From: Owenia fusiformis
Lineage: Eukaryota; Annelida; Polychaeta; Sabellida; Oweniidae
Length of the DNA stretch: 64,000 nucleotides
Reading direction: 5' to 3'
Assembly: GCA_903813345.2 (NCBI GenBank)
Contig: CAIIXF020000007.1
Span: forward strand, 21,191,564-21,255,563
Below are positions 17,101-55,189 of the stretch, piece by piece. Made by a program: the position numbers and the translations under genes. The notes under the pieces are model-generated. The model was not told the DNA's origin, did not search any database, and saw only the letters and a program-made list of their open reading frames with translations. Numbering within the stretch: the stretch's first letter is position 1; the number at the start of each line of letters is the position of its first letter.

Positions 17101-20100
17101 ACGCAAGGCTCTACATTCACAACAGCAACAAACCAACAGAGTACAACTGCATCATTAGCTACAACAGTACCGTCACAAACAACCACAATCTTAACAAGTA
17201 AGTCTATTTATTGTTTATGTTTATCTTACAGGCTAATCACGTTAATTACGACCGTATATATACAGGTTAAACCCTTAAGAGGTATCGCTCACTTTCATTG
17301 TTGGTAAAAAGTACAAAACAGGAACTCTGCTCAAGAAAAATACTCCGTGAAGTTGCTGTTTCTTGTTAGTTTAAGTTGAAACATTTTACATTATATTTTA
17401 TATCGAAAAAACATGTGAAAGTTTCTATATAAATATTTACAAAACTTTCTGGCATTGGGAGATCTATCGACAAAGAGCTTGCGTAATTGTACTAAAAAAG
17501 AAACGATTATGTAACCATGAGATAATGATACGCAATAAAAGTGAAAAATTCTCATTATTCACAAATAACGGATATCAAATACTATCAATACCTTCAAAAT
17601 TGTATTAGTTATATAATTTTCTTAGGTATCTAGAATGACCAATAGTCATGTCACTTTAAAATTCATATTTTCTGATGGGTAACCCAACCCATTGAATAAA
17701 TAGAGGATATCCTATGATTTATGAGTGATATGATTTTTATCCACGAATGGATATGATATCTGCATGAGCGAGCGTATCGAGAGAGTGCAGATATCAATAT
17801 CCATGAGTGGATTAAAATCATATCACGAGTAAATCATAGGATGTTATTTTTATTCAATAGTTAAAGTCATCATCAGAATCGTCGGAAATTAAGTGATTTA
17901 ATTCGAATTTTCCAAACGCTCTGGCGATGTTGACACTTAACCTCGTTTTGAATCTGAAGTAGCAAAAATCCATATGTCATGGCTTAAACACCGTATGCTA
18001 TGGTTAAGTGAAAATTTGTCAAAAATATCATATTTTACCACTGGTTACAAAAATACAGTTTTTATTTTGACATGTTATCCTATAAATATCATGCTAACTA
18101 TAGAATAAATCAATATATTGTTTGATAAATCAGTATTTCCTATTTAGGAGAATCGTCATCTGGAATATCTGTCGCCACAACACCAAGAACTGTCGTCACA
18201 ACCGTGACACCATGTACATATGTTGTCACAATGAGCGATGCGAATGTGGTTGACTTGACAAAAAGTGAAATAATGAATGAAAGTGGAGAATTCACAGAAA
18301 TACCAGATCTAGGTGCTTTGACAGATGATAATCCTAATACGAAACTTGTGGGACTGTTTAGTCCATCGACAGATCCACAAACTTTAAAGATGTCTACAGT
18401 GCTTAAAACTAACAACCAAGATGTTGAAATAAGCAGTGTGCAACTAACAGGACTGAAAAACGTTAAAGGCGTTGCTGTCACAATCAAGAATACAGATGGC
18501 AACGATGTTGAAACGGTATGAACACACAGTTTCAAAGTAATGAATGTTACTGATTCAAAGCGATAAGACACATGTGGGAAGGAGAAACACTGCAAAATGT
18601 AGTGTTGTTCACTTTGTTGTAATAAATTTGAAAACCGCTCTATACCTTGCATTAACCTTAAATAAAATCACACTTGTTCCAGTTATCAATGCTTGAACAT
18701 CTAGTCCTGTTCATGCTTAATTTATAATACCTTTAATTAAAACCAAATTACCAACACATATATTGTGGACCATGTAAATGACCATGGCCTTTAAATGTTT
18801 TGGTTCACCGGAATATGATTAATGTTCAATTTAGTACCAATATCTTGAACTATGAACTTTTACGATAAGTAGCCTTCTACATCTTATGTGAATACACTAC
18901 AATGATGCAATTTGCTGATTTTTAGAAAACCGAAGACATTGCTGGCGACTCTGCCAAGATTACTCTTCCTCAGCATACTGACGGAGTTCAAATTATCATA
19001 TCCTACACTGTGATGACTGACATGACTTTTGAAGTTGAAGATATGACAATCATTGCTTGCATTGAAGAAACAACAACGGTTGGAACAACTGCTGCACCAG
19101 CAACAACAAACCAAAGTATGACTGACAACAAGCATTTATTATTATGGTACAAGATGAACTGAATCTTAGTCGATAGAGCTCGATAAATATATGCTCACAC
19201 TTATATGACCTGAAGACTAAATTATTAGCCATAGATCGGAGATAATATTGAATATATTCATGAAAAAATCGTTAATTATACGAATAACCATCCCAGTGTT
19301 AGATTAATTGAATCAAAAATCTCAATACTTTGGAATTAAATTTTATCTATAATAGTCGATATTTCTATATTAATATTGTGTATGCAAATCAAGGTCAATG
19401 ATCGGGTCATATTTTTAGCCGAAACCTTCTACTTATCAATATTTCGTGAAGGTTTGTATGGTTGAATATTTTTAACGTTTAAGTTGTAAACCTCAACTCA
19501 TTTGAAGCACAATTTTACTTTTAGTCTCTACAGGATCAAGTTCTACTTCATCCAGCACATCGACATTAGCTTCGACAACAGTACCTTCCACAAGTAAGAT
19601 TTTGTTATGATTTACAGAATTATTGTTTTATCTGATCCTTTTAAACAATTTCTCAATGAATAAAGTTCCTTATTTCTGTTTTTAAATAGAGTATCATTGC
19701 CTATGTTCTAGCATCGTCAAGTTCTACATTTACAACAGAATCTGGTGTTAAGGATCAGACACAAACAACAACAACACCATTGATGCCGACAGGCATGCAT
19801 ACTCCAACACAAGGTACGGCTTCAGCACCATCATCAACTGGATCAACAACACTTTCAGAAACCACACAAACTGCTACTGAAGAAATTTCAACAGGAAACA
19901 ACTCTGGTAAATTTAGAAAATAATGCTTTTAAGAGATATTAATAATGAGTGAAATGTTTGGAGTTATTCTAACACTAATGAGTAAGAGAGTTATTGAGTA
20001 ACGTTCCTCCCAATAAATCCATAGCCAATACTAAACACATAGGGAAATGACGTCAAAAATTTCTCCAGAGCCAACGGACATGAAAAGCATGCTGGGAATC

Positions 20101-23100
20101 CTCTTTTTATGAAAATGACAGATACAAGTCAAAATATTCCCCACTAGACTATCTTGAATAACCTTAAATGCCCTGATTTTGTTTGCTTGTACCATGTCTA
20201 TATTATTTTCAATGCCAGGTACAACGTCTGTTACCAGTTTCACATCTGCACAAAGTACAACATTTGCACCAGGTACAACATCTACACCAGGAACACCATC
20301 TGGAACGAGTTCAACATCTGAAAGTGGAACAACACTCAGAACAAGTATACAAAATTGGTTTATTCATTGATATTTTCATCTTAGCTGTCCAAAAGGAGAA
20401 GCAGATATGTAACAATGAAATTAATATTGCTTCGATGCATATCCCTACCTTGTGAAAATATTTTCAATGTTTAAGGAAGTGATCGTTTCTTTTTAGGCGA
20501 ATCAACATCTGGAACTCCTGTCGTCACAACCATGGCACCATGTACATATGTTGTCAAAATGAGTGATGCGAATGTGGTTGACTTGACACAAAGTGAAATA
20601 ATGAATGAAAATGGGGAATTTACACAGAGACCAGATCTAGTTGCCTTGACAGATGATAATCCAAATACGAAACTTGTGGGACAGTTTAGTCCATCGACAG
20701 ATCCACAAACTTTAATGATGTCTACAATGCTGAAAACTAACAACCAAGATGTTGAAATAAGCAGTGTGGAACTAACAGGACTGAAAAATGTTGAAAGCGT
20801 AACTGTCACAATCAAGAATAAAGAAGGCAAGGATGTGAAATCGGTATGAACAAACAGTTTCCTAGTAATAAATGTTAATGATTAAAATTAATAAGACACG
20901 TGAGAGAAGCAGAAACACTGGAAAATGTATTAATTGATCATCTAGTTGAATTAAATTTGAAATACGTCCGATACCATAGATAAAATCACACTTGTTCCTG
21001 TTAACAAAGCTTTGTCATCCAGTCCAATATCTGCTTAATGTATTATCCATTATTTAAAGCCCAAATGTCCAACACTTATATTGTAGACCATGTAAATGAT
21101 CATGGCCTTTAAGTTAAAATTTGTTTCCAAGAATATGTCTGATGTAATCTGTGAGCTTTGATGTTCAATTTAATACAAATATATTGAACAATGAACTGTT
21201 ATAGTAAGTAACCTTCTACTTCTTACGTGAATACACTATAATAATGTAATTTGCTGATCTTTAGGTATCACAAGAAATTGCTGGTGATTCTGCCAAGATT
21301 ACTCTTCCTCAGCAAACTGAAGGAGTTCAAATTATCATATCCTACACTGTGATGACTGACATGACTTTTGAAGTTGAAGATATGACAATAATTGCTTGCA
21401 TTGAAGAAACAACAACGGTTGGAACAACTGCTGTACCAGCCACAACAAACCAAAGTATGACTGACAACAAGCATTTATTATTATGGTACAAGATGAACTG
21501 AATCTTAGTCGATAGAGCTCGATAAATATATGCTCACACTTATATGACCTGAAGACTAAATTATTAGCCATAGATCGGAGATAATATTGAATATATTCAT
21601 GAAAAAATCGTTAATTATACGAATAACCATCCCAGTGTTAGATTAATTGAATCAAAAATCTCAATACTTTGGAATTAAATTTTATCTATAATAGTCGATA
21701 TTTCTATATTAATATTGTGTATGCAAATCAAGGTCAATGATCGGGTCATATTTTTAGCCGAAACCTTCTACTTATCAATATTTCGTGAAGGTTTGTATGG
21801 TTGAATATTTTTAACGTTTAAGTTGTAAACCTCAACTCATTTGAAGCACAATTTTACTTTTAGTCTCTACAGGATCAAGTTCTACTTCATCCAGCACATC
21901 GACATTAGCTTCGACAACAGTACCTTCCACAAGTAAGATTTTGTTATGATTTACAGAATTATTGTTTTATCTGATCCTTTTAAACAATTTCTTAATGAAT
22001 AAAGTTCCTTATTTCTGTTTTTAAATAGAGTATCATTGCCTATGTTCTAGCATCGTCAAGTTCTACATTTACAACAGAATCTGGTGTTAAGGATCAGACA
22101 CAAACAACAACAACACCATTGATGCCGACAGGCATGCATACTCCAACACAAGGTACGGCTTCAGCACCATCATCAACTGGATCAACAACACTTTCAGAAA
22201 CCACACAAACTGCTACTGAAGAAATTTCAACAGGAAACAACTCTGGTAAATTTAGAAAATAATGCTTTTAAGAGATATTAATAATGAGTGAAATGTTTGG
22301 AGTTATTCTAACACTAATGAGTAAGAGAGTTATTGAGTAACGTTCCTCCCAATAAATCCATAGCCAATACTAAACACATAGGGAAATGACGTCAAAAATT
22401 TCTCCAGAGCCAACGGACATGAAAAGCATGCTGGGAATCCTCTTTTTATGAAAATGACAGATACAAGTCAAAATATTCCCCACTAGACTATCTTGAATAA
22501 CCTTAAATGCCCTGATTTTGTTTGCTTGTACCATGTCTATATTATTTTCAATGCCAGGTACAACGTCTGTTACCAGTTTCACATCTGCACAAAGTACAAC
22601 ATTTGCACCAGGTACAACATCTACACCAGAAACACCATCTGGAACGAGTTCAACATCTGAAAGTGGAACAACACTCAGAACAAGTATACAAAATTGGTTT
22701 ATTCATTGATATTTTCATCTTAGCTGTCCAAAAGGAGAAGCAGATATGTAACAATGAAATTAATATTGCTTCGATGCATATCCCTACCTTGTGAAAATAT
22801 TTTCAATGTTTAAGGAAGTGATCGTTTCTTTTTAGGCGAATCAACATCTGGAACTCCTGTCGTCACAACCATGGCACCATGTACATATGTTGTCAAAATG
22901 AGTGATGCGAATGTGGTTGACTTGACACAAAGTGAAATAATGAATGAAAATGGGGAATTTACACAGAGACCAGATCTAGTTGCCTTGACAGATGATAATC
23001 CAAATACGAAACTTGTGGGACAGTTTAGTCCATCGACAGATCCACAAACTTTAATGATGTCTACAATGCTGAAAACTAACAACCAAGATGTTGAAATAAG

Positions 23101-26100
23101 CAGTGTGGAACTAACAGGACTGAAAAATGTTGAAAGCGTAACTGTCACAATCAAGAATAAAGAAGGCAAGGATGTGAAATCGGTATGAACAAACAGTTTC
23201 CTAGTAATAAATGTTAATGATTAAAATTAATAAGACACGTGAGAGAAGCAGAAACACTGGAAAATGTATAAATTGATCATTTAGTTGAATTAAATTTGAA
23301 ATACGTCCGATACCATAGATAAAATCACACTTGTTCCTGTTATCAAAGCTTTGTCATTCAGTCCAATATCTGCTTAATGTATTATCCATTATTTAAAACC
23401 CAAATGTCAAACACTTATATTGTAGACCATGTAAATGATCATGGCCTTTAAGTTAAAATTTGGTTTCCAAGAATATGTCTGATGTAATCTGTGAGCTTTG
23501 ATGTTCAATTTAATACAAATATATTGAACAATGAACTTTTATAGTAAGTAACCTTCTACTTCTTACGTGAATACACAATAATAATGTAATTTGCTGATCT
23601 TTAGGTATCAGAAAATATTGCTGGTGATTCTGCCAAGATTACTCTTCCTCAGCAAACTGAAGGAGTTCAAATTATCATATCCTACACTGTGATGACTGAC
23701 ATGACTTTTGAAGTTGAAGATATGACAATAATTGCTTGCATTGAAGAAACAACAACGGTTGGAACAACTGCTGTACCAGCCACAACAAACCGAGGTATGA
23801 TCGAAATGAAGCATTTATTATCATGGTACAAGATGAACTAAATCCTTGCCATATGAAATTATCTTTTTAAGGCAACATTAAAATCTTAATTGATGGAGCT
23901 CGATAAATAGATGTTCACACTTACATGACCCTAAGACTAAATTATTAGCCATAGGTTTGAGATAATATTGAATATATTCATAACAAAATCTATAATACTT
24001 TAAATAACCAACTCAGTGTTAGAAGATTAAATTAATCATATCTCAATACTTGGGAATGTTTTATCTATATTAGTCGATATTTATATTGTGTTATACAAAT
24101 CAAGGTTAACAATAAGATCATATTTTAAGCCAAACCCTTATAGTAATCTAAATTTCGTGAAGGTTTATGTGATGGTTGACTATTCTATACTGATATAACG
24201 ATTTAGTTGTGATCCTCAACTCATTTGAAGCACAATTTTACTTCCAGGCTCTACATTATCAAGTTCTACTTCATCCAGTACATCGACATTGGCTTCAACA
24301 ACACAACCTTCCACTAGTAAGACTTTATTACGCTTTACAAGATAATAGTGTTTTCTGATGTCTTCTTAACCATTTTCAATGAATAAAGTCTCCTTATTGC
24401 TCACCTTAAATAGAGTTATAATGTCTATGTTCTAGCATCGTCAAGTTCTACATTTACAACAGAATCTGGTGTTAAGGATCAGACACAAACAACAACAACA
24501 CCATTGATGCCGACGGGTATGCACACTCCAACACAAGGTACGGCTTCAGCACCATCATCAACTGGAGCAACAACACTTTCAGAAACCACACAAACTGCTA
24601 CTGAAGAAATTTCAACAGGAAACAACTCTGGTAAATTTAGAAAATAATGCTTTTAAGAGATATTAATAATGAGTGAAATGTTTGGAGTTATTCTAACACT
24701 AATGAGTAAGAGATTTATTGAGTAACGTTCCTCCCAATAAATCCATAGCCAATACTAAACACATATGGAAATGACGTCAAAAATTCCTCCAGAGCCAACG
24801 GACATGAAAAGCATGCTGGGAATCCTCTTTTTATGAAAATGACAGATACAAGTCAAAATATTCCCCACTAGACTATCTTGAATAACCTTAAATGCCCTGA
24901 TTTTGTTTGCTTGTACCATGTCTATATTATTTTCAATGCCAGGTACAACGTCTGTAACCAGTTTCACATCTGCACAAAGTACAACATTTGCACCAGGTAC
25001 AACATCTACACCAGGAACACCATCTGGAACAAGTTCAACATCTAAAAGTGGAACAACACTCAGAACAAGTATACAAAATTGGTTTATTCATTGATATTTG
25101 CATCTTAGCTGTCCAAAAGGAGAGGCAGATATGTAACAATGAAATTAATATTCCATCGATGCATATCCCTACCTTGTGAAAATATTTTCAATGTTTAAGG
25201 AAGTGATCGTTTCTTTTTAGGCGAATCAACATCTGGAACTCCTGTCGTCACAACCATGGCACCATGTACATATGTTGTCAAAATGAGTGATGCGAATGTG
25301 GTTGACTTGACACAAAGTGAAATAATGAATGAAAATGGGGAATTTACACAGAGACCAGATCTAGTTGCCTTGACAGATGATAATCCAAATACGAAACTTG
25401 TCGGACAGTTTAGTCCATCGACAGATCCACAAACTTTAATGATGTCTACAATGCTGAAAACTAACAACCAAGATGTTGAAATAAGCAGTGTGGAACTAAC
25501 AGGACTGAAAAATGTTGAAAGCGTAACTGTCACAATCAAGAATAAAGAAGGCAAGGATGTGAAATCGGTATGAACAAACAGTTTTCTAGTAATAAATGTT
25601 AATGATTAAAATTAATAAGACAAGTGAGAGAAGCAGAAACACTGGAAAATGTATTAATTGATCATTTAGTTGAATTAAATTTGAAATACGATACCATAGA
25701 TAAAATCACACTTGTTCCTGTTATCAAAGCTTTGTCATTCAGTCCAATATCTGCTTAATGTATTATCCATTATTTAAAACCCAAATGTCAAACACTTATA
25801 TTGTAGACCATGTAAATGATCATGGCCTTTAAGTTAAAATTTGGTTTCCAAGAATATGTCTGATGTAATCTGTGAGCTTTGATGTTCAATTTAATACAAA
25901 TATATTGAACAATGAACTTTTATAGTAAGTAACCTTCTACTTCTTACTTGAATACACAATAATAATGTAATTTGCTGATCTCTAGGTATCAGAAAATATT
26001 GCTGGTGATTCTGCCAAGATTACTCTTCCTCAGCAAACTGAAGGAGTTCAAATTATCATATCCTACACTGTGATGACTGACACAACTTTTGAAGTTGAAG

Positions 26101-29100
26101 ATATGACAATAATTGCTTGCATTGAAGAAACAACAACGGTTGGAACAACTGCTGTACCAGCCACAACAAACCGAGGTATGATTGAAACGAAGCATTTATT
26201 ATCATGGTACAAGATGAACTAAATCCTTGCCATTCGAAATTATCTTTTTAAGGCAACATTAGAATCTTAATTGATGGAGCTCGATAAATAGATGTTCACA
26301 CTTACACATCCTCCTAAACAGGTGTCCAGAATCCGTACCTCCTTCTTCCCCCTGCTATAAGCAGTTAGCATTTCCCCGATTAAGAACTCGCAATTTGATT
26401 GGCTGTCGCAACACTGCGACAGAAATCATGTATACGTCATCGGCGCATAATAAGATCACGTGATTTAGTTTAATCGGGCGCGTCCAACTTGGTTATAGCA
26501 GGGGGTAAAAAGAAAGAAGATATTCTGGATTTTGAAGCCCTGTGATAGGAGGATGCACTTACATGACCCTAAAACTAAATTATTAGCCATAGGTTTGAGA
26601 TAATATTGAATATATTCATAACAAAATCTATAATACTTTAAATAACCAACTCAGTGATAGAAGATTAAATGAATCATATCTCAATACTTGGGATTTTTTT
26701 ATCTATATTAGTCGATATTTATATTGTGTTATACAAATCAAGGTTAACAATAAGATCATATTTTAAGCCAAAACCTTATAGTAATCTAAATTTCGTGAAG
26801 GTTTATGTGATGGTTGACTATTCTATTCTGATATAACGTTTTAGTTGTGATCCTCAACTCATTTGAAGCACAATTTTACTTCCAGGCTCTGCATTATCAA
26901 GTTCTACTTCATCCAGTACATCGACATTGGCTTCAACAACACAACCTTCCACTAGTAAGACTTTATTACGATTTACAAGATAATAGTGTTTTCTGATGTC
27001 TTCTTAACCATTTTCAATGAATAAAGTCTCCTTATTGCTCACCTTAAATAGAGTTATAATGTCTATGTTCTAGCATCGTCAAGTTCTACATTTACAACAG
27101 AATCTGGTGTTAAGGATCAGACACAAACAACAACAACACCATTGATGCCGACGGGTATGCACACTCCAACACAAGGTACGGCTTCAGCACCATCATCAAC
27201 TGGAGCAACAACACTTTCAGAAACCACACAAACTGCTACTGAAGAAATTTCAACAGGAAACAACTCTGGTAAATTTAGAAAATAATGCTTTTAAGAGATA
27301 TTAATAATGAGTGAAATGTTTGGAGTTATTCTAACACTAATGAGTAAGAGAGTTATTGAGTAACGTTCCTCCCAATAAATCCATAGCCAATACTAAACAC
27401 ATATGGAAATGACGTCAAAAATTCCTCCAGAGCCAACGGGCATGAAAAGCATGCTGGGAATTCTCTTTTATATGAAAATGACAGATACAAGTCAAAATAT
27501 TCCCCACTAGACTATCTTGAATAACCTTAAATGCCCTGATTTTGTTTTCTTGTACCATGTCTATATTATTTTCAATGCCAGGTACAACGTCTGTAACCAG
27601 TTTCACATCTGCACAAAGTACAACATTTGCACCAGGTACAACATCTACACCAGGAACACCATCTGGAACAAGTTCAACATCTGAAAGTGGAACAACACTC
27701 AGAACAAGTATACAAAATTGGTTTATTTATTGATATTTTCATCTTAGCTGTCCAAAAGGAGAAGCAGATATGTAACAATGAAATTAATATTGCTTCGATG
27801 CATATCCCTACCTTGTGAAAATATTTTCAATGTTTAAGGAAGTGATCGTTTCTTTTTAGGCGAATCAACATCTGGAACTCCTGTCGTCACAACCATGGCA
27901 CCGTGTACATATGTTGTCAAAATGAGTGATGCGAATGTGGTTGACTTGATACAGAGTGAAATAATGAATGAAAATGGGGAATTTACACAGAGACCAGATC
28001 TAGTTGCCTTGACAGATGATAATCCAAATACGAAACTTGTCGGACAGTTTAGTCCATCGACAGATCCACAAACTTTAATGATGTCTACAATGCTGAAAAC
28101 TAACAACCAAGATGTTGAAATAAGCAGTGTGGAACTAACAGGACTGAAAAATGTTGAAAGCGTAACTGTCACAATCAAGAATAATGAAGGCAAGGATGTG
28201 AAATCGGTATGAACAAACAGTTTCCTAGTAATAAATGTTAATGATTAAAATTAATAAGACACGTGAGAGAAGCAGAAACACTGGAAAATGTATTAATTGA
28301 TCATTTAGTTGAATTAAATTTGAAATACGTCCGATACCATAGATAAAATCACACTTGTTCCAGTTATCAAAGCTTTGTCATCAAGTCCAATATCTGCTAA
28401 ATGTATTATCCATTATTTAAAACCAAAATGTCCAACACTTATATTGTAGACCATGTAAATGATCATGGCCTTTAAGTTAAAATTTGGTTTCCAAGAATAT
28501 GTCTGATGTAATCTGTGAGCTTTGATGTTCAATTTAATACAAATATATTGAACAATGAACTTTTATAGTAAGTAACCTTCTACTTCTTACGTGAATACAC
28601 AATAATAATGTAATTTGCTGATCTTTAGGTATCAGAAAATATTGCTGGTGATTCTGCCAAGATTACTCTTCCTCAGCAAACTGAAGGAGTTCAAATTATC
28701 ATATCCTACACTGTGATGACTGACACAACTTTTGAAGTTGAAGATATGACAATAATTGCTTGCATTGAAGAAACAACAACGGTTGGAACAACTGCTGTAC
28801 CAGCCACAACAAACCGAGGTATGATTGAAACGAAGCATTTATTATCATGGTACAAGATGAACTAAATCCTTGCCATATGAAATTATCTTTTAAAGGCAAC
28901 ATTAGAATCTTAATTGATGGAGCTCGATAAATAGATGTTCACACTTACATGACCCTAAGACTAAATTATTAGCCATAGGTTTGAGATAATATTGAATATA
29001 TTCATAACAAAATCTATAATACTTCAAATAACCAACTCAGTGTTAGAAGATTAAATGAATCATATCTCAATACTTGGGAATTTTTTTATCTATATTAGTC

Positions 29101-32100
29101 GATATTTATATTGTGTTATACTAATCATGGTTAACAATAAGATCATATTTTAATCCAAAACCTTATAGTAATCTAAATTTCGTGAAGGTTTATGTGATGG
29201 TTGACTATTCTATACTGATATAACGTTTTAGTTGTGATCCTCAACTCATTTGAAGCACAATTTCACTTCCAGGCTCTACATTATCAAGTTCTACTTCATC
29301 CAGTACATCGACATTGGCTTCAACAACACAACCTTCCACTAGTAAGACTTTATTACGATTTACAAGATAATAATGTTTTCTGATGTCTTCTTTAACATTT
29401 TCAATGAATAACGTCTCCTTATTGCTCACCTTAAATAGAGTTATAATGTCTATGTTCTAGCATCGTCAAGTTCTACATTTACAACAGAATCTGGTGTTAA
29501 GGATCAGACACAAACAACAACAACACCATTGATGCCGACGGGTATGCACACTCCAACACAAGGTACGGCTTCAGCACCATCATCAACTGGAGCAACAACA
29601 CGTTCAGAAACCACACAAACTGCTACTGAAGAAATTTCAACAGGAAACAACTCTGGTAAATTTAGAAAATAATGCTTTTAAGAGATATTAATAATGAGTG
29701 AAATGTTTGGAGTTATTCTAACAATAATGAGTAAGAGAGTTATTGAGTAAAGTTTCTCCCAATAAATCCATAGCCAATACTAAACACATATGGAAATGAC
29801 GTGAAAAATTCCTCCAGAGCCAACGGACATGAAAAGCATGCTGGGAATCCTCTTTTTATGAAAATGACAGATACAAGTCAAAATATTCACCTCTAGACTA
29901 TCTTGAATAACCTTAAATGCCCTGATTTTGTTTGCTTGTACCATGTCTATATTATTTTCAATGCCAGGTACAACGTCCTTAACCAGTTTCACATCTGCAC
30001 AAAGTACAACATTTGCACCAGGTACAACATCTACACCAGGAACACCATCTGGAACAAGTTCAACATCTGAAAGTGGAACAACACTCAGAACAAGTATACA
30101 AAATTGGTTTATTCATTGATATTTTCATCTTAGCTGTCCAAAAGGAGAAGCAGATATGTAACAATGAAATTAATATTCCTCCGATGCATATCCCTACCTT
30201 GTGAAAATATTTTCAATGTTTAAGGAAGTGATCGTTTCTTTTTAGGCGAATCAACATCTGGAACTCCTGTCGTCACAACCATGGCACCATGTACATATGT
30301 TGTCAAAATGAGTGATGCAAATGTGGTTGACTTGACACAAAGTGAAATAATGAATGAAAATGGGGAATTTACACAGAGACCAGATCTAGTTGCCTTGACA
30401 GATGATAATCCAAATACGAAACTTGTGGGACAGTTTAGTCCATCGACAGATCCACAAACTTTAATGATGTCTACAATGCTGAAAACTAACAACCAAGATG
30501 TTGAAATAAGCAGTGTGGAACTAACAGGACTGAAAAATGTTGAAAGCGTAACTGTCACAATCAAGAATAAAGAAGGCAAGGATGTGAAATCGGTATGAAC
30601 AAACAGTTTCCTAGTAATAAATGTTAATGATTAAAATTAATAAGACACGTGAGAGAAGCAGAAACACTGGAAAATGTATTAATTGATCATCTAGTTGAAT
30701 TAAATTTGAAATACGTCCGATACCATAGATAAAATCACACTTGTTCCTGTTAACAAAGCTTTGTCATCCAGTCCAATATCTGCTTAATGTATTATCCATT
30801 ATTTAAAGCCCAAATGTCCAACACTTATATTGTAGACCATGTAAATGATCATGGCCTTTAAGTTAAAATTTGTTTCCAAGAATATGTCTGATGTAATCTG
30901 TGAGCTTTGATGTTCAATTTAATACAAATATATTGAACAATGAACTGTTATAGTAAGTAACCTTCTACTTTTTATGTGAATACACAATAATAATGTAATT
31001 TGCTGATCTTTAGGTATCAGAAACTATTGCTGGTGCTTCTGCCAAGATTACTCTTCCTCAGCAAACTGAAGGAGTTCAAATTATCATATCCTACACTGTG
31101 ATGACTGACACAACTTTTGAAGTTGAAGATATGACAATAATTGCTTGCATTGAAGAAACAACAACGGTTGGAACAACTGCTGTACCAGCCACAACAAACC
31201 GAGGTATGATTGAAACGAAGCATTTATTATCATGGTACAAGATGAACTAAATCCTTGGCATATGAAATTATCTTTTTAAGGCAACATTAGAATCTTAATT
31301 GATGGAGCTCGATAAATAGATGTTCACACTTACATGACCCTAAGACTAAATTATTAGCCATAGGTTTGAGATAATATTGAATATATTCATAACAAAATCT
31401 ATAATACTTTAAAATAACCAACTCAGTGTTAGAAGATTAAATGAATCATATCTCAATACTTGGGAATTTTTTATCTATATTAGTCGATATTTATATTGTG
31501 TTATACAAATCAAGGTTAACAATAAGATCATATTTTAAGCCAAAACCTTATAGTAATCTAAATTTCGTGAAGGTTTATGTGATGGTTGACTATTCTATAC
31601 TGATATAACGTTTTAGTTGTGATCCTCAACTCATTTGAAGCACAATTTTACTTCCAGGCTCTACATTATCAAGTTCTACTCCATCCAGTACATCGACATT
31701 GGCTTCAACAACACAACCTTCCACTAGTAAGACTTTATTACGATTTACAAGATAATAGTGTTTTCTGATGTCTTCTTAACCATTTTCAATGAATAATGTC
31801 TCCTTATTGCTCACCTTGAATAGAGTTATAATGTCTATGTTCTAGCATCGTCAAGTTCAACATTTACAACAGAATCTGGTGTTAAGGATCAGACACAAAC
31901 AACAACAACACCATTGATGCCGACGGGTATGCACACTCCAACACAAGGTACGGCTTCAGCACCATCATCAACTGGAGCAACAACACTTTCAGAAACCACA
32001 CAAACTGCTACTGAAGAAATTTCAACAGGAAACAACTCTGGTAAATTTAGAAAATAATGCTTTTAAGAGATATTAATAATGAGTGAAATGTTTGGAGTTA

Positions 32101-35100
32101 TTCTAACACTAATGAGTAAGAGAGTTATTGAGTAACGTTCCTCCCAATAAATCCATAGCCAATACTAAACACATATGGAAATGACGTCAAAAATTCCTCC
32201 AATGCCATCGGACATGAAAAGCATGCTGGGAATCCTCTTTTTATGAAAATGACAGATACAAGTCAAAATATTCACCTCTAGACTATCTTGAATAACCTTA
32301 AATGCCCTGATTTTGTTTGCTTGTACCATGTCTATATTATTTTCAATGCCAGGTACAACGTCTGTAACCAGTTTCACATCTGCACAAAGTACAACATTTG
32401 CACCAGGTACAACATCTACACCAGGTACATCATCTGGAACAAGTACAACATCTGAAACAGGAACAACACTCAGAACAAGTATGCAAAATTAGTTTATTCA
32501 TTGATATTTTCATCTTAGCTGTCCAAAAGGAGAAGCAGATATGTAACAATGAAATTAATATTCCTTCGATGCATATCCCTACCTTGTGAAAATATTTTCA
32601 ATGTTTAAGGAAGTGATCGTTTCTTTTTAGGCGAATCAACATCTGGAACTCCTGTCGTCACAACCATGGCACCATGTACATATGTTGTCAAAATGAGTGA
32701 TGCGAATGTGGTTGACTTGACACAAAGTGAAATAATGAATGAAAATGGGGAATTTACACAGAGACCAGATCTAGTTGCCTTGACAGATGATAATCCAAAT
32801 ACGAAACTTGTGGGACAGTTTAGTCCATCGACAGATCCACAAACTTTAATGATGTCTACAATGCTGAAAACTAACAACCAAGATGTTGAAATAAGCAGTG
32901 TGGAACTAACAGGACTGAGAAATGTTGAAAGCGTAACTGTCACAATCAAGAATAAAGAAGGCAAGGATGTGAAATCGGTATGAACAAACAGTTTCCTAGT
33001 AATAAATGTTAATGATTAAAATTAATAAGACACGTGAGAGAAGCAGAAACACTGGAAAATGTATTAATTGATCATCTAGTTGAATTAAATTTGAAATACG
33101 TCCGATACCATAGATAAAATCACACTTGTTCCTGTTAACAAAGCTTTGTCATCCAGTCCAATATCTGCTTAATGTATTATCCATTATTTAAAGCCCAAAT
33201 GTCCAACACTTATATTGTGGACCATGTAAATGATCATGGCCTTTAAGTTAAAATTTGTTTCCAAGAATATGTCTGATGTAATCTGTGAGCTTTGATGTTC
33301 AATTTAATACAAATATATTGAACAATGAACTGTTATAGTAAGTAACCTTCTACTTTTTACGTTAATACACAATAATAATGTAATTTGCTGATCTTTAGGT
33401 ATCAGAAACTATTGCTGGTGCTTCTGCCAAGATTACTCTTCCTCAGCAAACTGAAGGAGTTCAAATTATCATATCCTACACTGTGATGACTGACACAACT
33501 TTTGAAGTTGAAGATATGACAATAATTGCTTGCATTGAAGAAACAACAACGGTTGGAACAACTGCTGTACCAGCCACAACAAACCGAGGTATGATTGAAA
33601 CGAAGCATTTATTATCATGGTACAAGATGAACTAAATCCTTGGCATATGAAATTATCTTTTTAAGGCAACATTAGAATCTTAATTGATGGAGCTCGATAA
33701 ATAGATGTTCACACTTACATGACCCTAAGACTAAATTATTAGCCATAGGTTTGAGATAATATTGAATATATTCATAACAAAATCTATAATACTTTAAAAT
33801 AACCAACTCAGTGTTAGAAGATTAAATGAATCATATCTCAATACTTGGGAATTTTTTATCTATATTAGTCGATATTTATATTGTGTTATACAAATCAAGG
33901 TTAACAATAAGATCATATTTTAAGCCAAAACCTTATAGTAATCTAAATTTCGTGAAGGTTTATGTGATGGTTGACTATTCTATACTGATATAACGTTTTA
34001 GTTGTGATCCTCAACTCATTTGAAGCACAATTTTACTTCCAGGCTCTACATTATCAAGTTCTACTCCATCCAGTACATCGACATTGGCTTCAACAACACA
34101 ACCTTCCACTAGTAAGACTTTATTACGATTTACAAGATAATAGTGTTTTCTGATGTCTTCTTAACCATTTTCAATGAATAATGTCTCCTTATTGCTCACC
34201 TTAAATAGAGTTATAATGTCTATGTTCTAGCATCGTCAAGTTCAACATTTACAACAGAATCTGGTGTTAAGGATCAGACACAAACAACAACAACACCATT
34301 GATGCCGACAGGTATGCACACTCCAACACAAGGTACGGCTTCAGCACCATCATCAACTGGAGCAACAACACTTTCAGAAACCACACAAACTGCTACTGAA
34401 GAAATTTCAACAGGAAACAACTCTGGTAAATTTAGAAAATAATGCTTTTAAGAGATATTAATAATGAGTGAAATGTTTGGAGTTATTCTAACACTAATGA
34501 GTAAGAGAGTTATTGAGTAACGTTCCTCCCAATAAATCCATAGCCAATACTAAACACATATGGAAATGACGTCAAAAATTCCTCCAATGCCAACGGACAT
34601 GAAAAGCATGCTGGGAATCCTCTTTTTATGAAAATGACAGATACAAGTCAAAATATTCACCTCTAGACTATCTTGAATAACCTTAAATGCCCTGATTTTG
34701 TTTGCTTGTACCATGTCTATATTATTTTCAATGCCAGGTACAACGTCTGTAACCAGTTTCACATCTGCACAAAGTACAACATTTGCACCAGGTACAACAT
34801 CTACACCAGGTACATCATCTGGAACAAGTACAACATCTGAAACAGGAACAACACTCAGAACAAGTATGCAAAATTGGTTTATTCATTGATATTTTCATCT
34901 TAGCTGTCCAAAAGGAGAAGCAGATATGTAACAATGAAATTAATATTCCTTCGATGCATATCCCTACCTTGTGAAAATATTTTCAATGTTTAAGGAAGTG
35001 ATCGTTTCTTTTTAGGCGAATCAACATCTGGAACTCCTGTCGTCACAACCATGGCACCATGTACATATGTTGTCAAAATGAGTGATGCGAATGTGGTTGA

Positions 35101-38100
35101 CTTGACACAAAGTGAAATAATGAATGAAAATGGGGAATTTACACAGAGACCAGATCTAGTTGCCTTGACAGATGATAATCCAAATACGAAACTTGTCGGA
35201 CAGTTTAGTCCATCGACAGATCCACAAACTTTAATGATGTCTACAATGCTGAAAACTAACAACCAAGATGTTGAAATAAGCAGTGTGGAACTAACAGGAC
35301 TGAAAAATGTTGAAAGCGTAACTGTCACAATCAAGAATAAAGAAGGCAAGGATGTGAAATCGGTATGAACAAACAGTTTCCTAGTAATAAATGTTAATGA
35401 TTAAAATTAATAAGACACGTGAGAGAAGCAGAAACACTGGAAAATGTATTAATTGATCATCTAGTTGAATTAAATTTGAAATACGTCCGATACCATAGAT
35501 AAAATCACACTTGTTCCTGTTAACAAAGCTTTGTCATCCAGTCCAGTATCTGCTTAATGTATTATCCATTATTTAAAGCCCAAATGTCCAACACTTATAT
35601 TGTAGACCATGTAAATGATCATGGCCTTTAAGTTAAAATTTGTTTCCAAGAATATGTCTGATGTAATCTGTGAGCTTTGATGTTCAATTTAATACAAATA
35701 TATTGAACAATGAACTGTTATAGTAAGTAACCTTCTACTTTTTACGTGAATACACAATAATAATGTAATTTGCTGATCTTTAGGTATCAGAAACTATTGC
35801 TGGTGCTTCTGCCAAGATTACTCTTCCTCAGCAAACTGAAGGAGTTCAAATTATCATATCCTACACTGTGATGACTGACACAACTTTTGAAGTTGAAGAT
35901 ATGACAATAATTGCTTGCATTGAAGAAACAACAACGGTTGGAACAACTGCTGTACCAGCCACAACAAACCGAGGTATGATTGAAACGAAGCATTTATTAT
36001 CATGGTACAAGATGAACTAAATCCTTGGCATATGAAATTATCTTTTTAAGGCAACATTAGAATCTTAATTGATGGAGCTCGATAAATAGATGTTCACACT
36101 TACATGACCCTAAGACTAAATTATTAGCCATAGGTTTGAGATAATATTGAATATATTCATAACAAAATCTATAATACTTTAAAATAACCAACTCAGTGTT
36201 AGAAGATTAAATGAATCATATCTCAATACTTGGGAATTTTTTATCTATATTAGTCGATATTTATATTGTGTTATACAAATCAAGGTTAACAATAAGATCA
36301 TATTTTAAGCCAAAACCTTATAGTAATCTAAATTTCGTGAAGGTTTATGTGATGGTTGACTATTCTATACTGATATAACGTTTTAGTTGTGATCCTCAAC
36401 TCATTTGAAGCACAATTTTACTTCCAGGCTCTACATTATCAAGTTCTACTCCATCCAGTACATCGACATTGGCTTCAACAACACAACCTTCCACTAGTAA
36501 GACTTTATTACGATTTACAAGATAATAGTGTTTTCTGATGTCTTCTTAACCATTTTCAATGAATAATGTCTCCTTATTGCTCACCTTAAATAGAGTTATA
36601 ATGTCTATGTTCTAGCATCGTCACGTTCAACATTTACAACAGAATCTGGTGTTAAGGATCAGACACAAACAACAACAACACCATTGATGCCGACGGGTAT
36701 GCACACTCCAACACAAGGTACGGCTTCAGCACCATCATCAACTGGAGCAACAACACTTTCAGAAACCACACAAACTGCTACTGAAGAAATTTCAACAGGA
36801 AACAACTCTGGTAAATTTAGAAAATAATGCTTTTAAGAGATATTAATAATGAGTGAAATGTTTGGAGTTATTCTAACACTAATGAGTAAGAGAGTTATTG
36901 AGTAACGTTCCTCCCAATAAATCCATAGCCAATACTAAACACATATGGAAATGACGTCAAAAATTCCTCCAATGCCAACGGACATGAAAAGCATGCTGGG
37001 AATCCTCTTTTTATGAAAATGACAGATACAAGTCAAAATATTCACCTCTAGACTATCTTGAATAACCTTAAATGCCCTGATTTTGTTTGCTTGTACCATG
37101 TCTATATTATTTTCAATGCCAGGTACAACGTCTGTAACCAGTTTCACATCTGCACAAAGTACAACATTTGCACCAGGTACAACATCTACACCAGGTACAT
37201 CATCTGGAACAAGTACAACATCTGAAACAGGAACAACACTCAGAACAAGTATGCAAAATTGGTTTATTCATTGATATTTTCATCTTAGCTGTCCAAAAGG
37301 AGAAGCAGATATGTAACAATGAAATTAATATTCCTTCGATGCATATCCCTACCTTGTGAAAATATTTTCAATGTTTAAGGAAGTGATCGTTTCTTTTTAG
37401 GCGAATCAACATCTGGAACTCCTGTCGTCACAACCATGGCACCATGTACATATGTTGTCAAAATGAGTGATGCGAATGTGGTTGACTTGACACAAAGTGA
37501 AATAATGAATGAAAATGGGGAATTTACACAGAGACCAGATCTAGTTGCCTTGACAGATGATAATCCAAATACGAAACTTGTCGGACAGTTTAGTCCATCG
37601 ACAGATCCACAAACTTTAATGATGTCTACAATGCTGAAAACTAACAACCAAGATGTTGAAATAAGCAGTGTGGAACTAACAGGACTGAAAAATGTTGAAA
37701 GCGTAACTGTCACAATCAAGAATAAAGAAGGCAAGGATGTGAAATCGGTATGAACAAACAGTTTCCTAGTAATAAATGTTAATGATTAAAATTAATAAGA
37801 CACGTGAGAGAAGCAGAAACACTGGAAAATGTATTAATTGATCATCTAGTTGAATTAAATTTGAAATACGTCCGATACCATAGATAAAATCACACTTGTT
37901 CCTGTTAACAAAGCTTTGTCATCCAGTCCAGTATCTGCTTAATGTATTATCCATTATTTAAAGCCCAAATGTCCAACACTTATATTGTAGACCATGTAAA
38001 TGATCATGGCCTTTAAGTTAAAATTTGTTTCCAAGAATATGTCTGATGTAATCTGTGAGCTTTGATGTTCAATTTAATACAAATATATTGAACAATGAAC

Positions 38101-41100
38101 TGTTATAGTAAGTAACCTTCTACTTTTTACGTGAATACACAATAATAATGTAATTTGCTGATCTTTAGGTATCAGAAACTATTGCTGGTGCTTCTGCCAA
38201 GATTACTCTTCCTCAGCAAACTGAAGGAGTTCAAATTATCATATCCTACACTGTGATGACTGACACAACTTTTGAAGTTGAAGATATGACAATAATTGCT
38301 TGCATTGAAGAAACAACAACGGTTGGAACAACTGCTGTACCAGCCACAACAAACCGAGGTATGATTGAAACGAAGCATTTATTATCATGGTACAAGATGA
38401 ACTAAATCCTTGGCATATGAAATTATCTTTTTAAGGCAACATTAGAATCTTAATTGATGGAGCTCGATAAATAGATGTTCACACTTACATGACCCTAAGA
38501 CTAAATTATTAGCCATAGGTTTGAGATAATATTGAATATATTCATAACAAAATCTATAATACTTTAAAATAACCAACTCAGTGTTAGAAGATTAAATGAA
38601 TCATATCTCAATACTTGGGAATTTTTTATCTATATTAGTCGATATTTATATTGTGTTATACAAATCAAGGTTAACAATAAGATCATATTTTAAGCCAAAA
38701 CCTTATAGTAATCTAAATTTCGTGAAGGTTTATGTGATGGTTGACTATTCTATACTGATATAACGTTTTAGTTGTGATCCTCAACTCATTTGAAGCACAA
38801 TTTTACTTCCAGGCTCTACATTATCAAGTTCTACTCCATCCAGTACATCGACATTGGCTTCAACAACACAACCTTCCACTAGTAAGACTTTATTACGATT
38901 TACAAGATAATAGTGTTTTCTGATGTCTTCTTAACCATTTTCAATGAATAATGTCTCCTTATTGCTCACCTTAAATAGAGTTATAATGTCTATGTTCTAG
39001 CATCGTCACGTTCAACATTTACAACAGAATCTGGTGTTAAGGATCAGACACAAACAACAACAACACCATTGATGCCGACGGGTATGCACACTCCAACACA
39101 AGGTACGGCTTCAGCACCATCATCAACTGGAGCAACAACACTTTCAGAAACCACACAAACTGCTACTGAAGAAATTTCAACAGGAAACAACTCTGGTAAA
39201 TTTAGAAAATAATGCTTTTAAGAGATATTAATAATGAGTGAAATGTTTGGAGTTATTCTAACACTAATGAGTAAGAGAGTTATTGAGTAACGTTCCTCCC
39301 AATAAATCCATAGCCAATACTAAACACATATGGAAATGACGTCAAAAATTCCTCCAATGCCAACGGACATGAAAAGCATGCTGGGAATCCTCTTTTTATG
39401 AAAATGACAGATACAAGTCAAAATATTCACCTCTAGACTATCTTGAATAACCTTAAATGCCCTGATTTTGTTTGCTTGTACCATGTCTATATTATTTTCA
39501 ATGCCAGGTACAACGTCTGTAACCAGTTTCACATCTGCACAAAGTACAACATTTGCACCAGGTACAACATCTACACCAGGTACATCATCTGGAACAAGTA
39601 CAACATCTGAAACAGGAACAACACTCAGAACAAGTATGCAAAATTAGTTTATTCATTGATATTTTCATCTTAGCTGTCCAAAAGGAGAAGCAGATATGTA
39701 ACAATGAAATTAATATTCCTTCGATGCATATCCCTACCTTGTGAAAATATTTTCAATGTTTAAGGAAGTGATCGTTTCTTTTTAGGCGAATCAACATCTG
39801 GAACTCCTGTCGTCACAACCATGGCACCATGTACATATGTTGTCAAAATGAGTGATGCGAATGTGGTTGACTTGACACAAAGTGAAATAATGAATGAAAA
39901 TGGGGAATTTACACAGAGACCAGATCTAGTTGCCTTGACAGATGATAATCCAAATACGAAACTTGTGGGACAGTTTAGTCCATCGACAGATCCACAAACT
40001 TTAATGATGTCTACAATGCTGAAAACTAACAACCAAGATGTTGAAATAAGCAGTGTTGAACTAACAGGACTGAAAAATGTTGAAAGCGTAGCTGTCACAA
40101 TCAAGAATAAAGAAGGCACGGATGTGAAATCGGTATGAACAAACAGTTTCCTAGTAATAAATGTTAATGATTAAAATTAATTAGACACGTGAGAGAAGCA
40201 GAAACACTGGAAAATGTATTAATTGATCATTTAGTTGAATTAAATTTGAAATACGTCCGATACCATAGATAAAATCACACTTGTTCCAGTTATCAAAGCT
40301 TTGTCATCAAGTCCAATATCTGCTTAATGTATTATCCATTATTTAAAACCCAAATGTCCAACACTTATATTGTAGACCATGTAAATGATCATGGCCTTTA
40401 AGTTAAAATTTGGTTTCCAAGAATATGTCTGATGTAATCTGTGAGCTTTGATGTTCAATTTAATACAAATATATTGAACAATGAACTTTTATAGTAAGTA
40501 ACCTTCTACTTCTTACGTGAATACACAATAATAATGTAATTTGTTGATCTTTAGGTATCAGAAAATATTGCTGGTGATTCTGCCAAGATTACTCTTCCTC
40601 AGCAAACTGAAGGAGTTCAAATTATCATTTCCTACACTGTGATGACTGACACAACTTTTGAAGTTGAAGATATGACAATAATTGCTTGCATTGAAGAAAC
40701 AACAACGGTTGGAACAACTGCTGTACCAGCCACAACAAACCGAGGTATGATTGAAACGAAGCATTTATTATCATGGTACAAGATGAACTAAATCCTTGCC
40801 ATATGAAATTATCTTTTTAAGGCAACATTATAATCTTAATTGATGGAGCTCGATAAATAGATGTTCACACTCACATGACCCTAAGACTAAATTATTAGCC
40901 ATAGGTTTGAGATAATATTGAATATATTCATAACAAAATCTATAATACTTTAAATAACCAACTCAGTGCTAGAAGATTAAATGAATCATATCTCAATACT
41001 TGGGAATTTTTTATCTATATTAGTCGATATTTATATTGTGTTATACAAATCAAGGTTAACAATCAGATCATATTTTAAGCCAAAACCTTCTAGTAATCTA

Positions 41101-44100
41101 AATTTCGTGAAGGTTTATGTGATGGTTGACTATTCTATACTGATATAACGTTTTAGTTGTGATCCTCAACTCATTTGAAGCACAATTTTACTTCCAGGCT
41201 CTACATTACCAAGTTCTACTTCATCCAGTACATCGACATTGGCTTCAACAACACAACCTTCCACTAGTAAGACTTTATTACGATTTACAAGATAATAGTG
41301 TTTTCTGATGTCTTTTTAACCATTTTCAGTGAATAACGTCTCCTTATTGCTCACCTTAAATAGAGTTATAATGTCTATGTTCTAGCATCGTCAAGTTCTA
41401 CATTTACAACAGAATCTGGTGTTAAGGATCAGACACAAACAACAACAACAACACCATTGATGCCGACGGGTATGCACACTCCAACACAAGGTACGGCTTC
41501 AGCACCATCATCAACTGGAGCAACAACACTTTCAGAAACCACACAAACTGCTACTGAAGAAATTTCAACAGGAAACAACTCTGGTAAATTTAGAAAATAA
41601 TGCTTTTAAGAGATATTAATAATGAGTGAAATGTTTGGAGTTATTCTAACACTAATGAGTAAGAGATTTATTGAGTAACGTTCCTCCCAATAAATCCATA
41701 GCCAATACTAAACACATATGGAAATGACGTCAAAAATTCCTCCAGAGCCAACGAACATGAAAAGCATGCTGGGAATCCTCTTTTTATGAAAATGACAGAT
41801 ACAAGTCAAAATATTCCCCACTAGACTATCTTGAATAACCTCAAATGCCCTGATTTTGTTTGCGTGTACAATGTCTATATTATTTTCAATGCCAGGTACA
41901 ACGTCTGTAACCAGTTTCACATCTGCACAAAGTACAACATTTGCACCAGGTACGACATCTTTACCAGGAACGCCATCTGGAACAACAACGACACTCAGAA
42001 CAAGTACAAATAATTGGTTTATTCATTGATATTTTCATCTTACCTGTCCAAAAGGAGAAGTAGATATGTAACAATGAAATTAATATTTCTTCCACACATA
42101 TCCCAACCTAATGAAAATATTTTCAACGTTTTATGAAGTAATCATTTCTTTGTAGGTGAATCAACATCTGGAACTCCTGTCGTCACAACTATGACACCAT
42201 GTACATATGTTGTCAAAATGAGTGATGCGAATGTGGTTGACTTGACACAAAGTGAAATAATGAATGAAAATGGAGAATTTACACAGATGCCAGATCTAGC
42301 TGCATTAACAGATGATAATCCAAATACGAAACTCGTGGGACAGTTTAGTCCATCGACAGATCCACAAACTTTAATGATGTCTACAATGCTGAAAACTAAC
42401 AACCAAGATGTTCAAATAAGCAGTGTGGAACTAACAGGACTGAAAAATGTTGAAAGCGTAACTGTCACAATCAAGAATAAAGAAGGCAAGGATGTAGAAA
42501 CGGTATGAACAGTTTCCTAGTAATAAATGTTAATTATTAAAATAAATAATACACATGAGAGAAGCAGAAACACTGGAAAATGTAGTAATTGATCATTTAG
42601 TTGAATTTAATTTGAAATCCGTTCCATACCTTGCATTAACCTTAGATAAAATTACACTTGTTCCAGTTCATTGCTTGAAAATCTAGTCCAATTCCTGCTT
42701 ATTTTATAATACCTTTAATTTAAACCAAATTTCAAACACATAAATTGTGGACCATGTTAATGACGATGGCCTTTAAATAGTTAATTTGGTTTACCAGAAT
42801 ATGTCTGATGTAATCTGTGAGTGTTAATGTTCAATTTAATATAAATTTATTTAACTATGAACTTTAACGATAAGTAGCCTTCTACATCATATGTAAAATC
42901 ACTATAATAATGTAATTCGCTGATTTTTAGAAATCAGAAGAAGTTACCGGAGAGTCTGCCAAGGTCACTCTTCCTCAGGATACTGAAGGCCTTCAAATTA
43001 TCATATCCTACAGTGTGATGACTGACACAACTTTTGAAATTGAAGACATGACAATAATTGCCTGTATAGAAGAAACAACAACGGTTGGAATAACTGCTGT
43101 ACCAGCAACAACAAACAAAGGTATGAATGACAACAAGCATTTATTATTATGGTACAAGATGAACTGAACCTAAATTGATGGAGCTGGATCAATAAGATGC
43201 TCATTTATATGAACTGAAAACTACATTATTAGCCATAGGTTGGAGATAACATTGAATATATTCATGAAAATATCTTTAAATATTCAAATTACCATCCCAG
43301 TGTTAGAAGATTAAGTGAATCGAAAGTCTCAATACTTTGGAATTGATTTTATCTATAATAGTCGAATTTCTATATTAATATTGTGTTAAAAATCAGAATT
43401 GTCGACAGGAAACAACTATGGTAGGCTGATAGATGATATTAAAATTGCGAATGTATGTCATAAAGATTTATATACGTTTTAGGGGAAATTGGTTATCACG
43501 TTCGCTGTTATGATACATGATCTATTAATGTACATGTACTTATAGGTACACAAAATCATCGACTGTAACTTCAACCTTGAAGCCATCGACTTGTTAGAAT
43601 TATACTGTCATATATTTCTTCGCTATACATTTGAAAATATATAGAGTAGTATCAAGCAATATTTTGATATGTTAATCAAGATTCAACATCTGAACTAGGT
43701 ACAACATCTGCAGCGGGCACAACATCTACACCAGGTACATCTACATCAGGTACAACACCTGGAACAGCATCAACCGGAGTAACAACAACATCAACAAGTT
43801 CATCAACAGCATCGGTTACAACGTCTCAAACAACCACAGAATTGTCCACAGGAAACAACTATGGTAAGTTGATAGATGATATTAAATTTGTGAATGTATG
43901 TCATAAAATAGGAATAGACTTATACATTATAGGGGACATTGATTACCAATTTCGCTGTTAAAAAACATGATTTATCTGTGTATTTCTAGGTACCACAAAA
44001 TCATCGACTGTAACCTCGCAGCCATCGACTAGTAAGAATAATACTATCATTAATTTCTTAATTCAATCTTGGTACTACACTTGTCTTATTTTGCAAAATA

Positions 44101-53901: not shown

Positions 53902-55189
53902 GCAATATGCATTTACTTGAATTAAAAAGAGTTTAGTCCAAATACTAAATTGTCCTACACCAACCTTTCTAAAACGCCTTGGGAATTTTATAGAATAAAA
54001 GAAGAATATACTTGTCTTGTCTGTTTACAAAAGTAAAACATGTAAAACTCGGATTCTAAGGATCGGTAATCATTTACACATGAACAGCTTCTGCCCCGTG
54101 ATCCACCAAACCTTCGACCCCCTCCCCACTCCCTTCGTCTCGAACCCCCCACCCCACCCTTTCGTTATGGACTCCATGTCGGGAACGAACCACATTCTCA
54201 GAAAGATGTCTATTTTTGCAGGAACGATGAATCGTACTTTTATACTAGCAGGGCCATAGAGAGGGGGTTTGGCGGGTTCGTGCCCCTTCCAAATCTTGCC
54301 TAAAAAAATATAAACCCAGTACCATTTTTGGCAATTATGCGAATACTTCCTCCAAAATATTGAGTTAATATCTTTGCAGCCTTTAGTTGTTTTATTGTTT
54401 TTTGAATACATAAGATATTTGAGGTATACGTAAAGATGAAAATATATGAGATAAATAACTTTATTTTGAGTAAAAAAGATTAAAAACTCAGAAAGATGTA
54501 TTTTGAAGGGCGATCATACATGTACCCCGGTTTCCACTTCATACTTTAGGCTTGGAATACTGATTTTATTGAATCGTACGAATAAAGTACAAGACCGTGG
54601 CTAGTTGAAACTGTTGAATGGCGATATTGATATAACGCCAAAATGGATATGATGTACGTAACAGTAGGACGGCACATTGAAAAAACCCATTGTTGTTTAC
54701 CAAACTTTATATCAAAGTGGTGTAGCGATATATGACGTCATCGCACTACTTGTTTCTGGTCCGTTGGCTACCATCTTTATGAGGTCCAATGAAACGGGAA
54801 ACATTTAAACATTTGAAAATGAAAGTGACGGATAGAATTCTACTGATCTCTTCTTTCCAACTATCTCGTTTTAATGTTAGAAAAATGCACATAAATGGGA
54901 GTAAAATGCAATCAAACACGTGGGACTTTCACTCATTTTGTACCCTATATTCGTGCGAAATTAACATTGATTAAACATAATTTTTTTAAATGTCTGAATC
55001 GCTTAAAAGTTAAAGTAAATACGATATTCTATAAGTACCAAATATCAATCAGTTCCGATAAAATGCCTTCATTTGTTACATTTTCTACGAAAACGGCTGG
55101 GCATAATTTCGGTAGAAATGTGTATTTTACGACGTTATATGCATGGTTGAATCCAAAAAGTAGCGTCATTCAGGAAATTATCATGTGTG
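53902..55189. other. Intergenic stretch without recognised genes
   Basis: Short open frames on both strands show no domain or splice logic. A C-rich segment at 54090-54160 resembles one at 61205-61245 (the phrase AGCTTCTGCCCC), suggesting a minor dispersed repeat. Confidence 0.4.

Follow-up and report, generated by a model that had tools for sequence, protein, structure and literature searches.

The 64,000-nucleotide stretch of the Owenia fusiformis genome analyzed here (contig CAIIXF020000007.1, positions 21,191,564 to 21,255,563 of the forward strand; henceforth the window) carries an array of ten tandem five-exon cassettes on its plus strand at 18148-42003, inside what looks like a large mucin gene. 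The cassettes were delimited by BLAST with reference exons, by their splice sites, and by translation.

Ten cassettes with conserved exons, frame and intron phases

A first-pass annotation of this DNA had placed ten copies of a five-exon unit at the locus, and its borders proved exact: 18148 is the start of exon E1 of cassette 1 and 42003 the end of exon E5 of cassette 10. A BLAST search of the window with one unit returned tandem copies that are 84-100% identical to the reference unit. The earliest match began at 18190, and exon E1 of cassette 1 was then traced upstream of it to its start at 18148. The E1 exons of the ten cassettes start at 18148, 20497, 22836, 25221, 27860, 30246, 32631, 35016, 37401, and 39786. 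Measured from one E1 start to the following one, cassettes 1-10 are 2349, 2339, 2385, 2639, 2386, 2385, 2385, 2385, 2385, and 2370 bp long, and about 1.46 kb of the 2.4-kb unit is intron.

Exons E1-E5 of the reference unit, bounded by GT-AG splice sites, measure 347, 190, 69, 195, and 126 nt, together 927 nt or 309 codons. This coding length recurs in eight of the ten cassettes, for which the proposed 309-residue repeat holds, whereas cassette 1 codes for 316 residues (948 nt) and cassette 10 for 304 (912 nt). All ten are free of stop codons and encode exactly two cysteines each, and frame and splice sites are intact in the copies examined (12 of E1, 13 of E2, 11 of E3, 12 of E4, and 11 of E5), as had been claimed for the ten copies from the outset. 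The intron phases are identical in every cassette (1-E1-0-E2-1-E3-1-E4-1-E5-1), and the cassette is therefore 1-1 symmetric. In cassette 8 the threonine/serine-rich (T/S-rich) tail spans 148 residues, 80 of them threonine or serine. The initial estimate of about 130 such residues per cassette was too high, the whole cassette containing 113-123.

The ten cassettes belong to a larger array, further parts of which lie on the same strand at 1-3244, 11775-11969, and 42156-43120. A cassette cut by the window start (1-2130, henceforth V) was traced with reference exons and splice sites through the tail of E1 (2-100), E2 (526-715), E3 (1164-1232), E4 (1356-1550), and E5 (2005-2130). Next to it, at 2283-3244, is a copy of the two-cysteine domain of the cassettes (domain A) without a T/S tail, composed of E1 (2283-2629) and E2 (3055-3244) and henceforth called W. 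A lone copy of E4 occupies 11775-11969. At 42156-43120 there is an 11th domain A, composed of E1 (42156-42502) and E2 (42931-43120) and lacking E3-E5.

An open gene model ending in a cystine knot

We assembled by hand a gene model of 83 exons in the window from homology, open frames, and splice sites. The model is open for 6,089 residues with a sole stop at 50758, all 82 of its introns are GT-AG, and their phases are consistent throughout; it is weaker outside the cassettes than in the array, since an open frame and AG/GT flanks were among the criteria for choosing exons there. With 1,519 threonines, 878 serines, and 273 prolines, the product has the long Thr/Ser/Pro-rich repeats of a mucin, in keeping with the early proposal of one gene-like reading frame coding for such a protein. 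The length of 6,065 residues predicted at that stage has to be replaced by the 6,089 of the new model, a figure that leaves out an N-terminus lying beyond the window. All 29 cysteines before residue 5,655 are in folded domains, two per complete domain, and this distribution therefore favors disulfides that would be closed inside each domain over cross-links between chains.

The C-terminus is encoded by eight exons (46363-50758, plus strand) comprising a T/S exon, a cysteine-rich region, and a cystine knot followed by the stop at 50758, with an AATAAA downstream at 51138. The cystine knot scores 28.2 bits against Pfam PF00007, above the cut-off of 24, and its best match in the Protein Data Bank (PDB) is von Willebrand factor (VWF; E 7e-4); the cysteine-rich region has no Pfam match of its own. 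The gene thus has the C-terminal cystine knot of the gel-forming mucin/VWF family, and in the model the last exons encode this knot and the stop rather than a transmembrane segment. Judged from sequence features, it looks like the central and C-terminal part of a secreted, cystine-knot-ended mucin with its N-terminus outside the window, where any signal peptide and VWD domains, the N-terminal features of that family, would have to lie.

Exchange of sequence between cassettes

Divergence is unevenly distributed over the array. Inner cassettes 3-9 are 97.9-100% alike, with cassettes 6-9 the most alike (99.6-100%), and cassette 1 is the most divergent (88.4-94.3% to the others). Introns follow suit, those of the inner cassettes being 97-100% alike among the pairs listed. 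Intron 2 of cassette 4 alone holds an insertion of about 250 bp with inverted ends (26307-26556, strand unspecified), resembling a miniature inverted-repeat transposable element (MITE).

Cassette 2 is a recombinant that joins the inner type to the type of cassette 1. In the first 800 columns of the alignment, which cover exon E1 and intron 1, it differs from cassette 8 at 4 positions; the next alignment window, with exon E2 in it, shows 10 mismatches to cassette 8 and 13 to cassette 1; and the remainder, from unit position 967 onward, departs from cassette 1 at 2 positions. The switch is thus in or beside exon E2, in the part that encodes the folded domain, and sequence has therefore been exchanged between copies. 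For a four-gamete test we kept biallelic sites without gaps at which both states occur in two or more copies, dropping all other sites before the count. The ten cassettes yielded 132 such sites, of whose 8,646 pairs 1,086 are incompatible, giving at least 12 exchanges, and the observed compatibility of neighboring sites was reached by none of 2,000 permutations. The signal was also significant with cassettes 1 and 2 both removed (26 sites, 4 of 2,000 permutations). The inner copies are thus near-identical, the edge copies are diverged, and at least some of the copies have exchanged sequence.

Exons diverge more slowly than introns

Exons were compared with introns in four distant pairs of 15 (V, W, the 11th domain, and cassette 1, each against cassette 8), with counts rebuilt from rounded percentages. 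Exons are less divergent than introns in all four, with 51/570 versus 219/866, 51/534 versus 113/410, 41/534 versus 76/415, and 74/912 versus 169/1224 differences (Fisher p of 9e-16, 5e-13, 1e-6, and 3e-5 in the same order), so that exons diverge at 0.35-0.59 times the intron rate. The ratio of nonsynonymous to synonymous rates (dN/dS) for the domain is 0.52 (1 versus 8), 0.35 (11 versus 8), 0.54 (W versus 8), 0.79 (W versus 1), and 0.37 (W versus 11) in distant pairs, and for the T/S exons 0.34 (1 versus 8), 0.22 (V versus 8), 0.26 (V versus 1), and 0.41 (2 versus 8). Constraint on the cassettes accordingly finds support, albeit moderate, in these comparisons; gene conversion confined to exons could be another cause of their low divergence.

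Further repeats and domains in the same gene

Three single T/S exons on the plus strand are made up mostly of 18-bp units resembling exon E5: a phase 1-1 exon of 423 nt at 5031-5453, one of about 2.0 kb (2,016 nt) with 18/36-bp repeats at 9287-11302, and one of about 1.2 kb (1,236 nt) at 12243-13478. A smaller tandem series of T/S exon pairs (183/171 nt and 42/48 nt) at 43681-46049, also on the plus strand, is modeled as four long copies and three short ones. The gene therefore also grows by 18-bp repeats inside single exons and by duplication of exon pairs, and the suggestion that the multi-exon block is its unit of growth stands for the ten five-exon cassettes but not for these single exons. 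A short T/S exon at 17099-17197 (plus strand) sits between the array and the second copy of the B domain described below.

By eye, some 18-bp units of the three repeat exons and of the E5 exons contain CAGGTAC, the letters of the E5 acceptor junction (CAG|GTAC), which also resemble the donors picked for these repeat exons; exon borders may have arisen from the 18-bp repeat, or may shift within it in steps of six residues. An intron of the exon-pair series harbors an element of about 340 bp at 44456-44795 with 42-nt inverted ends (83% complementary), which looks like a mariner-type or MITE insertion. In the intron between the first B domain and the 2-kb repeat exon there is a degenerate 21-bp tandem repeat (7987-8062, 3.6 copies, 69% matches).

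A second type of two-cysteine domain (domain B) is present in two plus-strand copies, B1 at 5946-7425 (exons 5946-6256 and 7293-7425) and B2 at 13769-15636 (exons 13769-14076 and 15504-15636), both with phases 1-0-1. In both, one cysteine is encoded close to the 5' end of the first exon and the other close to the 3' end of the second, with a phase 0 intron in between. A and B are only weakly similar in sequence: profile comparison gave a match of 21 columns only (E 0.05, probability 1.1%), and pairwise scores, set against 2,000 shuffles, had z of 2.4-3.2, with 7 to 43 of the shuffles scoring as well. A and B are likely kin, mainly on the strength of their shared exon phases and cysteine placement.

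Outside the gene, a tandem array of units of about 238 bp lies downstream (55181-56880, 7.2 copies, 84% matches). An open frame of 550 residues on the minus strand (57499-59151) has a weak reverse-transcriptase match (PF00078, 23.5 bits, below the cut-off of 29.6) and is probably part of a retroelement.

Identity of the folded domain

Domain A matched no Pfam family above cut-off and no solved PDB chain below E 0.2. For two copies of the domain, Pfam searches to E 1 gave no SEA family, and PDB sequence searches to E 10 gave no SEA chain, a negative that leaves some room for a very diverged SEA. CysD domains carry many cysteines; the exactly two cysteines in each of the ten cassettes, along with the lack of a Pfam match above cut-off, set domain A apart from them. 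We dismissed weak PDB matches to an IgA Fc receptor for domain A (E 0.22-0.35) and to peptidyl-tRNA hydrolase for domain B (E 0.057), as well as Pfam matches under cut-off to CUB, FlgD_ig, and other families. A search of prokaryote and viral contigs for relatives of exon E1 gave 75 and 9 pattern matches, respectively, none of which was confirmed, a result that says little about animals.

AlphaFold was run on exon E1 alone, that is, without the last 45 residues of the domain up to the second cysteine, once with eight sequences (six of the 12 complete A copies and both B copies) and once with eight of the 12 A copies. The models, unreliable as they are, consist mostly of strands, which is weak evidence against the alpha/beta fold of SEA.

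Discussion

We consider it probable, at roughly 0.8, that the locus is one gene for a secreted, cystine-knot-ended animal mucin whose middle has been lengthened by tandem duplication of a 2.4-kb five-exon block. The cassette is bounded by phase 1 introns, and gain or loss of any whole block therefore keeps the frame. Growth would proceed by unequal crossing-over, at meiosis or between sister chromatids and perhaps accompanied by gene conversion, using the whole 2.4-kb block as homology, so that the protein would gain or lose 309 residues per step. Each unit would contribute a 148-residue tail, presumably O-glycosylated, and a folded domain that is probably all-beta, its two cysteines closing it by a disulfide. 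Along the resulting bottlebrush chain the folded domains would recur as nodes at regular intervals, and the cystine knot would dimerize that chain.

Several observations weigh against this reading of the locus. The window starts inside the gene, and the model product therefore lacks its N-terminus, the signal peptide likewise falling outside. We infer that all cassettes are joined in one transcript, and the 33 AATAAA motifs within the array make internal poly(A) sites possible. The cystine knot is the sole Pfam match of the 509-residue C-terminus, with no TIL, VWC, or VWD domain beside it. No reliable fold was obtained for E1, the mean predicted local distance difference test (pLDDT) scores of the two AlphaFold runs being an unreliable 46.0 and 50.3. 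When cassette 1 alone was removed, the compatibility of neighboring sites was not significant (33 sites, 737 of 2,000 permutations). As to constraint, domain dN/dS is only modestly below 1 (0.35-0.79) even in distant pairs; closer pairs are near 1 (1.04 for the domain of 2 versus 8), below 1 on few changes, or uninformative; and the excess of changes at third codon positions is uneven, being absent from E1 in W versus 1 (12, 7, and 8 changes).

An assembler faced with a long array of near-identical units, which is hard to assemble, might have inflated the copy number of a shorter one, and cassettes 8 and 9 do differ by a single base in 2,385, so that this pair alone could be an assembly duplicate. 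For most copies such an artifact is contradicted by substitutions, indels, and the insertion confined to cassette 4: cassettes 7 and 8 differ by 7 bases and cassettes 6 and 7 by 9, cassettes 3, 4, 5, and 10 differ from one another and from 6-9 by about 1.4-3%, and cassettes 1 and 2, like the parts outside the array, are clearly diverged. We therefore regard inflation by assembly as improbable. Decay is more improbable still: dN/dS near 1 in closer pairs is what pseudo-exons carried along by duplication in a dying remnant would display, but the E1-E5 copies examined contain no stop or broken site, and in the four distant pairs exons diverge at well below the intron rate.

It is somewhat easier to imagine, if still unlikely, that the cassettes are alternative exons, individually chosen or skipped, or parts of several overlapping genes. 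E3, E4, E5, and the whole cassette all have phase 1-1 and could be skipped without a frame shift, and the AATAAA motifs of the array would suit separate transcript ends. Precedents exist: transcripts of the Schistosoma mansoni SmPoMuc genes vary in repeat number (PMC2576457), and shorter MUC16 transcripts without whole repeats occur in one tumor, perhaps by alternative splicing (PMC10829539). Yet all cassettes share one open frame and one set of splice sites, and skipping leaves the constraint on distant copies unexplained, although no search aimed at promoters or terminal exons inside the array was made.

Comparison with known mucins

Repeats rich in proline, threonine, and serine (PTS repeats) have been placed in one large exon (preprint PMC13345508; PMC1552070), and the preprint presents this arrangement as the rule for all canonical mucins. 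The preprint counts MUC16 among the mucins and, in the text available, is silent on its five-exon repeats, so that its wording differs from that of PMC3431878. The contrast that the first-pass annotation drew with single-exon growth of known mucins accordingly agrees with these two sources but fails for MUC16 (PMC3431878), for chicken Muc13, and for SmPoMuc (PMC2576457). Among the matches listed in open-licence papers, seen as titles and the starts of abstracts, no multi-exon cassette array in an invertebrate gel-forming-type mucin was found, and the portions consulted of PMC10475054 (snail mucus) and PMC9578598 (MUC3B) contain nothing on exon-wise repeats.

Like gel-forming MUC2, MUC5AC, and MUC5B, the O. 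fusiformis gene has a C-terminal cystine knot and alternates PTS segments with small cysteine-containing domains (PMC1552070); in those mucins, unlike here, the repeats and cysteine-rich domains sit in one exon with a variable number of tandem repeats (PMC13345508). It shares with chicken Muc13 the spread of PTS repeats over several exons instead of one large exon (PMC1552070), but each Muc13 repeat is one exon, whereas the cassette has five, two of them for the folded domain. As in SmPoMuc, exon and introns are copied together as a genomic unit. There the units are about 1 kb, their introns more than 94% identical, with gene conversion favored and unequal crossing-over also likely (PMC2576457), but the repeated exon is only 27 bp (nine residues) and SmPoMuc is a multigene family. 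Rfam gave no match at gathering score in the whole window, and thus no hammerhead ribozyme like that of the SmPoMuc intron (PMC2576457).

The closest parallel is vertebrate MUC16 (CA125), whose repeat of 156 residues is described as taking up five exons and about 1.9 kb and as comprising a SEA domain with two conserved cysteines and an S/T/P-rich tail (PMC3431878); a long-read model has 19 such repeats (PMC10829539). In humans the repeat number of MUC16 is reported to be almost invariant, with three alleles that differ by 3-6 bp (PMC13345508). Both genes grow by a multi-exon unit of five exons that adds a folded two-cysteine domain and an S/T-rich tail; unlike membrane-anchored MUC16, the unit here has 309 residues and no SEA match, and the protein ends in a cystine knot. 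The gene resembles MUC16 in how it grows and falls outside MUC16 by SEA domain and membrane anchor. Multi-exon growth of mucin repeats is itself already known, from MUC16; what seems new is that a cystine-knot mucin combines an unmatched domain with repeats on three scales and with introns that record exchange.

More tentatively, at somewhat less than even odds, a secreted cystine-knot mucin may have reached the MUC16 mode of growth independently. In this reading SEA would be replaced by a two-cysteine domain family not described before, which comprises types A and B at least; phase 1 introns would hold three nested repeat scales (18 bp, exon pair, and 2.4-kb cassette) in frame; and mucin length would be likely to differ between individuals, in steps of 6, of tens, or of 309 residues. 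The gene looks like a clear counter-example to the rule of one large exon, holding both modes of growth side by side. It is also a natural setting in which to ask whether a protein can acquire folded domains jointly with glycosylated spacers by way of intron homology and 1-1 phase symmetry.

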